DNA from: Actinomycetales bacterium
GTDB lineage: Bacteria > Actinomycetota > Actinomycetes > Nanopelagicales > Nanopelagicaceae
NCBI GenBank assembly: GCA_018970885.1
Contig: JAGWVL010000002.1
Coordinates: 1-64,000 of the forward strand
DNA: 64,000 bases
Direction: 5' to 3'
A program made the translations under genes and the position numbers. Positions 55,976 to 59,815 of the stretch are shown here, one piece after another. Within the stretch, counting starts at the first letter, position 1. Every line of letters begins with the position of its first letter. The notes beneath the pieces are model-generated. The model saw only the letters and a list, made by a program, of their open reading frames with translations, did no database searches and was not told the DNA's origin.

Positions 55976-57397
55976 ATGCCTGTATTTGATCTCGAGATCA
56001 ACGGCCCCAATGTAATTGCAGAGTCTGAACGATCAGGAAAAGCCCATTCCTTGTTTTGGCCTTGGGCTGGTGCAAATGTGTCATTGCTTGCCCTTTCGTA
56101 TGGAGCTTTCTTTTTAGGGTTTGGAATCTCATTGAGGCAAGCAACAGCCGCAGCCTTTATCGGGACAATCGGATCTTTTCTCTTGGTAGGAATTAGCTCA
56201 TTGGCTGGAAAAAGATCCAACGCCCCAACGATGGTTTTGTCGAGGGCTTCATTTGGCGTTAAAGGTAGCCGTCTTCCAGGAGCACTCTCCTACTTGATCT
56301 TTGTGGGATGGGAGACTGTTTTAGTCTCACTCGCAACACTTGCAACGGGAACTGTTTTCGCTCGCATCGGGGGAGTAGCTAACAATGTGGCTTTAATTCT
56401 TGGTTTCATTATCGCGGTCTCCCTGACCGTTTTTGGTGGTGTTTTAGGTTTCACAGTTATTATGAAACTTCAAAAGTTACTTACCATCACGACAATTGTT
56501 ATGACTTTGATCTATGTCTTACTGACCGTTGATAACATTAATTGGAACACTATCAATGCGATTCCAGATGGTTCACTTCAGAGTTTCATTGGAGCAATTA
56601 TTTTTGGCGTCACCGGCATTGGTCTGGGGTGGGTGAACGCAGCAGCGGATTACTCTCGTTATCTACCCCGAAACGTTTCTAGCAAGGCTGTGGTTGGTTG
56701 GACAGTTTTAGGTGCATCGATTGTTCCAATTGTTTTAGTCATTTACGGTGCTGCCTTATCTGGAAGCAGTAAAGAGCTCAGTGATGCGATCTCCATGGAT
56801 CCAATCGGCGCTTTAACCACGTTGTTGCCAACTTGGTACCTCATTCCTTTTGCACTAGTGGCAATTTTGGGTTTAGTGGGGGGCGCGATTTTGGATCTTT
56901 ACTCATCTGGTCTGGCGTTAGTTTCGATCGGGGTGCCGATTAAGCGTCACCAGGCTGCGATTATCGATTCGGTCATCATGCTTGCAGGAACTATTTATAT
57001 CGTGTGGGTTGCAGATAATTTCTTTTACCCTTTCCAAGGTTTCTTAATTACCCTTGGGGTACCAGTTGCTGTGTGGTCGGCAATATTTGTTGCTGATGTT
57101 GTTATGCGCAAAAAGGCTTATTCAGAGAAGGATCTCTTTGATTCCAAAGGTTTATACGGATCTGTTAATAAAGGTTCGCTCCTTTTGATGGGTGTTGGCT
57201 CGATTATTGGCTGGGGTTTTGTGACAAACACCTTTGCACCCTGGCTGGAGTGGCAAGGGTATCTTTTGCGTTTCATCGGCGGAAAAGATGGAGCGTGGGC
57301 GTACTCCAATATTGGCGTTATCTTCGCCTTGTTAATCGGCTTTTTTGGCCACATAGTCCTGGCGCGAAAAACTATCGTGAAGCAGGAGTCCTTCTAA
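55976..57397 (+). CDS. NCS1 family purine/cytosine permease
   Basis: A 473-residue membrane protein with about 12 spans, of the cytosine/purine/allantoin permease family (CodB/PucI group): FGISLRQATAAAFIGTIGSF, GIGLGWVNAAADYSRYLPR and FALVAILGLVGG. Takes up a nucleobase or related compound by cation symport; exact substrate uncertain. AAAAGG Shine-Dalgarno inside the copC 3' end, 2 bases after its stop, so the two genes are co-transcribed. Its 3' end overlaps the convergent nhaA gene by 26 bases. Confidence 0.88.
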   Translation: MPVFDLEINGPNVIAESERSGKAHSLFWPWAGANVSLLALSYGAFFLGFGISLRQATAAAFIGTIGSFLLVGISSLAGKRSNAPTMVLSRASFGVKGSRLPGALSYLIFVGWETVLVSLATLATGTVFARIGGVANNVALILGFIIAVSLTVFGGVLGFTVIMKLQKLLTITTIVMTLIYVLLTVDNINWNTINAIPDGSLQSFIGAIIFGVTGIGLGWVNAAADYSRYLPRNVSSKAVVGWTVLGASIVPIVLVIYGAALSGSSKELSDAISMDPIGALTTLLPTWYLIPFALVAILGLVGGAILDLYSSGLALVSIGVPIKRHQAAIIDSVIMLAGTIYIVWVADNFFYPFQGFLITLGVPVAVWSAIFVADVVMRKKAYSEKDLFDSKGLYGSVNKGSLLLMGVGSIIGWGFVTNTFAPWLEWQGYLLRFIGGKDGAWAYSNIGVIFALLIGFFGHIVLARKTIVKQESF

Positions 57398-58169
57398 GCC
57401 AGACATATCCGATTATTCCCGACAGGATTGCTGAGACAAAAAGGCCTAAGCGAACCTGATCGAGTTCGGCTTGATTCTTGGCGGCAATTTCTGCAATTAC
57501 CAAGGAAACTGTCATTCCCATTCCGGCTAGGGCACCGATTCCAGCTATAGCTTTAAGGTTTATCTGCGTCTTGCCTCCGAGTTTGATTGCTATCCAAGCA
57601 AAAAGTGTAATTCCTAGAATTTTTCCAATAGATCGTGCAATTACTAAAGCAACCATCGTTGTAGATGTAAAACTGTTGAGATCAATATCCAGGGGAATAT
57701 TGATAGCAATAATCACAGGCACAATGAAATAAGTTGAAAAAGGGGTGAGCACCTTGATCGCTCTATTTGAGTGAGATTTACTCAATGGAAGCAGAGCGCC
57801 AAGCGCTGCAGCACCTAGAGTTGAAAGCGCTTTTTCGGGATTTAGGTCATCTCCGTAGAAGGCTCCTAAAATCATCAGAGAGAAAAGATCATCAGCTATG
57901 GCAAGAGTCAACAGAAATATTCGCGCCTGGGGATGAACGCGATTTCCCAAAAGCGATAAAACACCTAAAGCCAATGCGATATCCGTTGGCATTGCCGTTG
58001 CCCAGACATGTGAATTGGGATTTAAAACAAGAAAGATGAATGCAGGAAAAATCATTCCGCCTAGCGCTGCAACAATCGGAACAATTACAGATTTGAAATC
58101 CTTCAATCCATGTCTAATCTCTAGACCAACCTGAAAGAAAAAGATGGCGATTAAGAGATTGATGAACAT
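57372..58169 (-). CDS. NhaA-family Na+/H+ antiporter, strongly shortened
   Basis: Only 265 residues against about 390 in classical NhaA. The start (FINLLIAIFFFQVGLEIRHG) matches the second membrane span, so roughly 70 N-terminal residues are missing. The key acids are present: D63 in MPTDIALALG and D93/D94 in LAIADDLF, equal to E. coli D133 and D163/D164. A further ~50 residues seem absent after GALLPL, where spans VI-VII should lie, and the K300 site reads Arg (QVRLGLFV). The ATG is 6 bases after TAGATT, and an in-frame stop lies just upstream, so this start is real. Confidence 0.85.
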   Translation of the reverse strand: MFINLLIAIFFFQVGLEIRHGLKDFKSVIVPIVAALGGMIFPAFIFLVLNPNSHVWATAMPTDIALALGVLSLLGNRVHPQARIFLLTLAIADDLFSLMILGAFYGDDLNPEKALSTLGAAALGALLPLSKSHSNRAIKVLTPFSTYFIVPVIIAINIPLDIDLNSFTSTTMVALVIARSIGKILGITLFAWIAIKLGGKTQINLKAIAGIGALAGMGMTVSLVIAEIAAKNQAELDQVRLGLFVSAILSGIIGYVWLRRTPASR

Positions 58170-58175
58170 GGTTCC

Positions 58176-58181
58176 AATCTA
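58176..58181 (-). promoter_or_regulatory. Leaderless -10 hexamer of the short nhaA
   Basis: On the minus strand TAGATT (58181-58176) lies 6 bases before the ATG at 58169. An in-frame TAG starts 12 bases before the ATG (part of this hexamer), so no longer product is possible from this frame. Confidence 0.55.
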
Positions 58182-58194
58182 CTGCAGATAGATA

Positions 58195-58222
58195 CAACAA
58201 AACCCGCCTTTTTAGGGGCGGG
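58195..58222 (-). terminator. Rho-independent terminator of glnA
   Basis: On the minus strand CCCGCC (58222-58217) pairs with GGCGGG (58208-58203) around an 8-base loop, followed by TTTTGTTG. It lies 36 bases after the glnA stop and before the nhaA promoter. Confidence 0.8.
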
Positions 58223-58257: not shown

Positions 58258-59691
58258 TTAGATGTCGTAATACAGTTCGAACTCAGCTGGGTGTGGACGT
58301 AGTCGAACATAATCAACTTCGTTCTTACGCTTCCATTCAATCCACGTAGAGATTAAATCCTCAGTAAATACTCCACCCTTAGTTAAAAATGCATGGTCCT
58401 TTTCCAATGAGTTCAAAACTGCATCTAGAGAACCAGGAACCTGCGGGATTGATGCAGCCTCTTCGCCTTCTAGCTCGTAAAGATCCTTATCAACTGGGGC
58501 AGGTGGTTCGATCTTATTGACGATTCCATCAAGACCAGCCATCAACATCGCTGCAAAGGCTAGATATGGATTTGATGATGGATCTGGGCAACGGAATTCG
58601 ATGCGCTTGGCCTTTGGATTGGATCCGGTAATTGGGATGCGGATACAGGCAGAGCGGTTACGAGCGGAGTAAACAAGGTTTACAGGTGCTTCGTACCCTG
58701 GAACCAAGCGACGGTATGAGTTCACTGTTGGGTTAGTGAAGGCTAAGAGTGATGGCGCGTGCTTCAAAAGACCACCGATGTACCAACGAGCCATTTCTGA
58801 AAGATCGCCATATGTACCTGCCTCGAAGAACAGTGGCTTCCCATCTTTCCACAGTGATTGGTGAACGTGCATACCTGAGCCGTTGTCGCCGAAGAGTGGC
58901 TTTGGCATGAATGTTGCTGTCTTTCCACCTTGCCATGCGGTGTTGCGAATGACGTACTTAAACTTCATCACATCATCACCTGCATGCAAAATATCGGAGA
59001 AGCGGTAGTTAATCTCCATCTGACCTGCAGTTCCCACCTCATGGTGTGAACGCTCGACGAGAAGTCCTACCTTGCCTAACTGCATCACCATTTCATCACG
59101 AAGATCTGCATACTGATCAGTTGGCGAAACGGGGAAGTAACCACCCTTCACACGTGTTCGGTAACCACGGTTAGGAGTTCCATCTGCATCGTATTCAACG
59201 CCCGTGTTCCAGGCACCTTCGTATGATTCAATCTCATGAACTGATGTATTGATGCCGGTCTTGAAGCGAACACTGTCAAAGACATAGAACTCAGCCTCTG
59301 GTGCAAAGAAAGCTGTATCTGCAAATCCCAAAGAACGCATGTAGTCAACAGCTTTTGCAACAACTCCACGTGGGTCTCGACTATATGGCGAATTATCAAC
59401 TGGATTGTGAACTGAGAAAATAATGATGAGGGTTTTTTCCTTGCGGTAAGGATCAATGTAAGCAGATTCCGGTACCGGCAAAAGTTTCATATCTGATTCG
59501 TCAATTGATTGGAAACCTCGAATAGAGGAACCATCAAACATTAAGCCATCGGTAAACACAGCTTCATTAAATGATTCAACAGGAACGTTGAAGTGATGCT
59601 GAATACCCGGTAAATCTGTAAAGCGGACATCAACTAATTTGACATCCTCTTTCTTAATGTAAGCAAAAATTTCTGCTGCGTTCTTAAACAT
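58258..59691 (-). CDS. glnA: Glutamine synthetase, type I
   Basis: Assimilates ammonium into glutamine; works with Amt and PII encoded at 14-15 kb. The 477 residues show the N-terminal beta-grasp ([12 protein letters not shown]), latch DGSSIRGFQ, the metal-site [30 protein letters not shown], and a C-terminal DKDLYEL tyrosine equal to the adenylylation site of GSI-beta enzymes. An upstream in-frame start at 59790 was rejected; ATG 59691 has GGGAG about 5 bases upstream. A GlnR-like box and -10 hexamer lie upstream. GlnE is not in the window. Confidence 0.98.
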
Positions 59692-59761
59692 GCTTCTCCC
59701 AATTTCACATGTGATGCGCAGACCCCTCATCATTGAGTTTCTGGCGCTTTTAGGTAGTTGA

Positions 59762-59815
59762 ACCCTAGGTCCACATGGTGAAAATGACATAACCCGCTTG
59801 TTAAATTCATGTTAC
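59762..59815 (-). promoter_or_regulatory. glnA promoter with GlnR-like box
   Basis: Minus strand, reading toward glnA: GTAAC (59815-59811), TTAAC (59804-59800), GTTAT (59793-59789) and TTCAC (59782-59778), each separated by exactly 6 bases as in the GlnR consensus (a-n6-b-n6-a-n6-b). The first site matches fully, the others partly. A TANNNT -10, TAGGGT (59767-59762), follows; the box would cover the -35 region. Predicted leader about 60 bases. The register is striking, but individual sites are degenerate. Confidence 0.6.

Follow-up and report, generated by a model that had tools for sequence, protein, structure and literature searches.

A nine-helix short form of NhaA, probably a functional antiporter, in the family Nanopelagicaceae

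A 265-residue member of the NhaA family, called mini-NhaA here, is encoded in the window (the whole stretch of 64,000 nucleotides that was analysed, from contig JAGWVL010000002.1 of Nanopelagicaceae assembly GCA_018970885.1). It is probably a functional Na+/H+ antiporter of nine helices whose six-helix core is intact and which acts either as a monomer or by way of a new interface. If true, antiport in abundant freshwater actinobacteria takes place without the dimer elements or most of the proposed pH-sensor residues of NhaA.

Gene, start site and neighbourhood

The gene, its landmarks and its neighbours have the following positions in the window.

57372..58169, minus strand: mini-NhaA coding sequence, 265 aa, start ATG at 58169-58167 (open reading frame; PF06965 at 185 bits; PDB NhaA matches at E 1e-36; same start in 64 orthologues)
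58176..58181, minus strand: TAGATT -10 box, 3' end 6 bases before the mini-NhaA ATG (sequence; TANNNT conserved in orthologues)
57981..57986, minus strand: T62-D63, equivalent to E. coli T132-D133, in broken helix IV (invariant in 139/139; AF2 break at residues 60-63)
57888..57893, minus strand: D93-D94, equivalent to E. coli D163-D164 (invariant in 139/139)
57819..57854, minus strand: junction of the internal deletion, residues 106-117 GDDLNPEKALST, where the end of helix V runs directly into helix VIII and VI-VII are absent (alignments; AF2 helices 80-108, then 111-129)
57621..57623, minus strand: K183, equivalent to E. coli K300 (alignment of the IGK motif; invariant in 139/139)
55976..57397, plus strand: NCS1-type permease gene (PF02133), tail-to-tail with mini-NhaA with a 26-base overlap of the ends; one border of the slot
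58258..59790, minus strand: glnA, glutamine synthetase, upstream of mini-NhaA on the same strand; the other border of the slot
58203..58222: GC-rich hairpin CCCGCCTTTTTAGGGGCGGG in the gap between glnA and nhaA, probably the glnA terminator (sequence)

The open reading frame (58169-57372, minus strand) spans 265 codons and is uninterrupted. An in-frame TAG stop is located four codons 5' of the ATG, and it is the TAG of the TAGATT box itself (58181-58176). Coordinates, length and open frame, as well as the upstream stop and the box 6 bases before the ATG, had been described in the first-pass annotation and were all found again in the sequence, the strand being minus. The same annotation had called the promoter clean, and comparison with orthologues gave stronger grounds for this than first claimed. 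Among the orthologues from the window's clade, all 64 have a TANNNT box that ends 6-7 bases before the start codon; hexamer and spacing together occur in 15 different states, while the background at that spacing was 7 out of 535 internal ATG/GTG codons. In all 64 the start codon also lies 16 codons before the conserved equivalent of E78. Since both the start and the box are conserved, the start site can be regarded as fixed, and so can the lack of helix I. A mis-called start that hides an upstream helix I was considered and rejected, because the window has a stop four codons before the ATG; even where relatives have longer open frames, the same start codon is preceded by the TANNNT box.

A generic sigma-70 scan returned nothing at the mini-NhaA promoter because the scan demands a -35 box. 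TANNNT centred 7-12 bases before the transcription start is the mycobacterial -10 motif and accompanies abundant leaderless mRNAs (PMC3898074), and the position of the box implies that the mini-NhaA mRNA is predicted to be leaderless too. At the other end of the gene, an overlap similar to the 26 bases shared with the NCS1 permease gene (57372-57397) was seen in nearly all genomes of the genus with a mini-NhaA, not in those with the longer 'midi' form described below. The glnA frame (58258-59790, 510 aa) is overlong at its 5' end, as relatives have a stop within the first ~29 codons, and the true start is probably an internal Met about 29 codons into the frame.

Homology, kept residues and predicted structure

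Mini-NhaA matches PF06965 in two stretches flanking the deletion, with 185 bits against a Pfam gathering score of 23.5, and this was the only family found in the Pfam search, without a match to PF00999 or the BASS/SLC10 family. The cut-off of the NCBIfam equivalog for full-length NhaA, TIGR00773, was missed (147 versus 254 bits). Judged by these matches, mini-NhaA is a member of the wider NhaA family, outside the equivalog as defined. In a phmmer search against the PDB, residues 5-124 were aligned with residues 66-190 of E. coli NhaA and residues 114-260 with residues 224-382. By this alignment mini-NhaA lacks about 61 residues at the N-terminus, where E. coli NhaA has helix I and the beta-hairpin, and about 44 in the interior, which correspond to helices VI-VII; the loop between II and III is shorter by a further 5 residues. 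The helix labels follow the boundaries of 1ZCD. The first-pass annotation had put the losses at about 70 residues (span I and lead-in) and about 50 residues (around spans VI-VII); both losses are confirmed, at about 61 and about 44 residues.

The missing parts are the reason for considering a split protein, in which a separate small gene supplies helix I and/or VI-VII. No support for it was found. A single NhaA match is present in the gene's own assembly (84% complete) and complete relatives also have a single match, while the gap of 88 bases between glnA and mini-NhaA is occupied by the terminator-like hairpin and the promoter, which makes a split gene exceedingly improbable.

The equivalents of T132, D133, D163, D164 and K300 were invariant in 139/139 aligned sequences; that the three aspartates are kept in mini-NhaA had been stated in the first-pass annotation. 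Lysine 300 had been reported as replaced by Arg, which proved incorrect: E. coli IGK(300)PLGI aligns with IGK(183)ILGI of mini-NhaA, and the Arg four positions upstream of K183 had probably been taken instead. A K300R exchange, with a CPA1-like mechanism, was therefore dismissed. The equivalent of E78 is kept as well. Neither E82 nor H225 has been retained, R245 is missing, and hydrophobic residues stand at the position of E252. The proposed pH-sensor cluster is mostly lost, together with a shortening of the VIII-IX loop, so the regulation of mini-NhaA must differ. The existence of this cluster in E. coli NhaA is itself disputed (PMC9408914). A second group of nine-helix proteins (L120, L124-L133; genera g25, g32, g35) has Gln in place of E78 with the whole catalytic site kept.

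AF2 was run with eight sequences, a shallow alignment in which only some loci were usable. The model of mini-NhaA shows nine transmembrane helices (pLDDT 77, pTM 0.76), with helix breaks exactly at the motifs of IV (60-63) and XI (216-219), and is poor in the panel region VIII-IX (residues 111-160, pLDDT ~50-65). The model of a homologue with 52% identity was weak (pLDDT 59); its helix pattern matches that of mini-NhaA, and nothing beyond the pattern is usable. The best Foldseek match of the mini-NhaA model was E. coli NhaA with E 1.4e-12 and a TM of 0.80 (query length). By prediction, the six-helix core with two crossing broken helices is present, and the nine helices fall short of the twelve-helix layout with its six-helix interface domain and beta-hairpin. 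The N-terminus is predicted to lie outside.

Far behind NhaA, Foldseek listed ASBT, SbtA, NapA and NTCP. Those to ASBT, SbtA and NTCP are in line with the alternative of an NhaA-derived transporter with another substrate, enabled by the smaller panel and performing, for example, K+/H+ exchange or Na+-coupled symport of a small organic solute as in SLC10/BASS. Its helix count would fit, as NTCP has nine helices and bacterial ASBT ten (PMC9242859), and the panel-side lining residues of mini-NhaA differ from those of NhaA. However, ASBT-type matches were far weaker than the NhaA match (E ~1e-3, TM ~0.5), none of the core residues needed for Na+/H+ exchange, K300 among them, varies, and sister species carry a full-length NhaA in the same slot. 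A change of substrate is therefore rather unlikely, and Na+/H+ antiport stays the preferred function.

Distribution, selection and stepwise reduction

Short NhaA proteins were found in more than 100 species of the order in a search of 296 genomes, all of them within the window's family. They come in two sizes, about 265 residues (mini) and about 335 residues (midi), and other species have a full-length protein of about 400 residues. Many genomes in this study are MAGs, but an assembly artefact was rejected because the short form occurs in complete single-contig genomes: a match was present in 17 single-contig genomes of the family, of which 15 had one short gene only, two a full-length gene only and none had both. 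A 76%-complete MAG (G004) contains a short fragment at a contig end and a full-length NhaA. In a sample of the class (395 genomes), matches outside the family were split around VI-VII as in full-length NhaA, and four genomes with a single match outside the family were discarded as short forms, being ordinary NhaA at contig ends or truncated at an end. A sample of the phylum (297 genomes) gave one further case, a 359-aa frame in G833, of another class, encoding an NhaA without VI-VII. This protein (L191; G833:C1:178746-179717) has a shortened hairpin and keeps helix I, in a genome of 1.8 Mb, and is possibly an independent reduction.

The midi form has helix I and is without the hairpin and VI-VII, and in the mini form helix I is lost too. 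In a tree built from core columns without the trait columns, the main group of short forms was monophyletic (support 100/100), with midi paraphyletic inside it and mini arising at least two times. As midi keeps helix I without VI-VII, the reduction is, by sequence comparison, stepwise from 12 to 10 to 9 helices, with a clade-wide loss of VI-VII and a loss of helix I that came later and more than once. In a few deep branches of short forms (L134, L136-L139, L191) the borders of the deletion differ slightly, and these may represent independent losses; a single origin of all VI-VII losses was neither shown nor rejected (AU p 0.34).

The small genome, the missing helices and the lack of any NhaA in some congeners might suggest a decaying, truncated gene that a streamlined genome is in the process of losing. 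For the clade as a whole this was rejected. The median pairwise omega among 26 close orthologues (dS 0.2-1.5) was 0.058 and the codon-model estimate 0.067, about equal to the neighbouring NCS1 permease (0.057) and with glnA at 0.036. Frames were intact in 64/64 orthologues, the promoter is conserved, the short form is spread over more than 100 species and the features of a pseudogene were not found. The window's copy itself is 77-79% identical to its nearest relatives at dS >1.5 (nearest 1.6), which makes the omega of its own branch imprecise. The short NhaA is under strong purifying selection at clade level, and decay has next to no probability. The earlier statement that simple decay does not explain the gene is borne out by these numbers, the proposed dN/dS comparison having given no sign of relaxed selection.

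Within the genus, the mini and midi genes follow glnA in the same orientation and meet the NCS1 permease gene tail-to-tail. A full-length NhaA occupies the same slot in opposite orientation in six of the seven full-length genes compared; in L156, L154 and L147 the inverted gene comes 12-46 bases after the NCS1 permease gene, in an operon-like arrangement. With an identity of only ~28% between full-length and mini proteins, this points to displacement by another NhaA lineage and not to trimming in place. No NhaA was found in two 99%-complete congeners (G239 and G237), so not every member of the genus depends on the function. G239 has an MscL-like ORF (L176) behind glnA and, in another part of the genome, a CPA1 antiporter; in G237, none of the four antiporter families searched was present. 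Of the 13 genomes searched, 11 were without a CPA1 antiporter and all were without NhaC and Mrp, and mini-NhaA is the only CPA-type antiporter found in its own assembly. One shared slot, no co-occurrence in complete genomes and few other antiporters point to the short and long forms doing the same job. For this reason the first option of the first-pass annotation, a minimal antiporter, is preferred to its second, an NhaA-derived protein with another role, the short form being conserved and every catalytic residue kept in the alignments.

Proposed function and comparison with known systems

NhaA-fold antiporters are textbook dimers, in which the core moves against the panel that holds the dimer together. 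In E. coli NhaA, ion transport is the task of the core, helices III-V and X-XII, and I, II, VI-IX and the hairpin form the interface domain; dimer assembly needs the hairpin and VI-VII, and the monomer is functional (PMC9408914; PMC10928194). Because the hairpin and VI-VII are missing, mini-NhaA should be a monomer or use a new interface, the first being suggested by the missing elements, as transport activity is by the conserved residues. The nine helices kept would be II, III, IV, V, VIII, IX, X, XI and XII, in a protein of the Asp-Asp plus Lys type, electrogenic and CPA2-like. The six-helix core (III-V, X-XII; IV and XI broken and crossing) would bind Na+ or H+ at D163/D164 with K300 and move against a panel cut from six helices to three (II, VIII, IX), in the usual alternating access. 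In the proposed course of events, loss of VI-VII and the hairpin would have given a ten-helix (5+5) form first, after which a promoter now directly before helix II would have fixed the nine-helix form. Mini-NhaA would take the place of full-length NhaA in these cells.

An obligate homo-oligomer with a new interface, for example through the exposed II, VIII and IX, is a narrower version of this antiporter reading, and its probability overlaps with that of the whole. The CPA antiporters studied are dimeric in the membrane, loss of helix I and VI-VII exposes new surfaces, and NhaM, an exchanger of very few helices, is active only as an oligomer (PMC9408914). On the other hand, mini-NhaA has neither of the two dimer elements known from E. 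coli, where NhaA is active as a monomer (PMC9408914), and no new interface motif was identified, so that obligate oligomers are a possible but doubtful form of the antiporter. We see an even chance for the most far-reaching version of the antiporter reading, a naturally monomeric NhaA that has shed its interface domain in two steps (12 to 10 to 9), has independently reached a panel of the NTCP type of SLC10 and works without dimer elements or most of the proposed pH-sensor residues.

In a topology survey of the CPA/AT proteins, PF06965 has a single topology of ten straight and two broken helices, and helix gains and losses within a fold type are confined to the N-terminal scaffold (PMC8396727). 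The short NhaA proteins, which have lost VI-VII, do not follow this rule. No report of a short NhaA in Nanopelagicales or Planktophila was found in the open-access literature, which is weak evidence of absence. The bacteria with this protein, probably of the acI type that is abundant in freshwater, offer a natural test of how much of NhaA is needed. Mini-NhaA makes it testable whether transport needs a dimer-grade scaffold, and whether pH dependence needs the sensor cluster or competition between Na+ and H+ suffices; its small size may also be of use in structural and synthetic studies.

E. coli NhaA (PDB 1zcd, 4au5, 7s24; PF06965; TC 2.A.33) is the best match of mini-NhaA in both sequence and fold. 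The two have in common helices III-V and X-XII, with IV and XI broken, and T132, D133, D163, D164, K300 and E78. With nine helices against twelve, mini-NhaA is without I, the beta-hairpin, VI and VII and without E82 and H225; it further differs in its shortened VIII-IX loop with the loss of pH-sensor residues, and in an N-terminus predicted outside. The full-length NhaA of sister species (~402 aa, e.g. L154, L156) shares the slot and the catalytic residues, but has twelve helices, is reversed in the slot and is ~28% identical to mini-NhaA. Closer is the midi NhaA (~335 aa, e.g. L018, L107), with 43-50% identity, the same internal deletion, hairpin loss and slot, which keeps helix I and a KREF stretch after helix II and so has ten helices.

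Outside the family, NapA and NhaP (CPA2 and CPA1) share the overall fold and the elevator-type scheme with mini-NhaA, but have 13 helices, and the CPA1 antiporters (NhaP/NHE type) have Asn and Arg at the positions of D163 and K300, where mini-NhaA has Asp-Asp plus Lys. ASBT and NTCP (BASS/SLC10) have a six-helix core with a reduced panel of four helices in ASBT and three in NTCP, like the short NhaA, and NTCP is without its first helix as mini-NhaA is without helix I (PMC9242859). They differ in being Na+-coupled bile-acid symporters and in having no sequence-family match with mini-NhaA. As far as the model goes, the likeness to BASS/SLC10 in nine or ten helices and a reduced panel is convergence, not membership.
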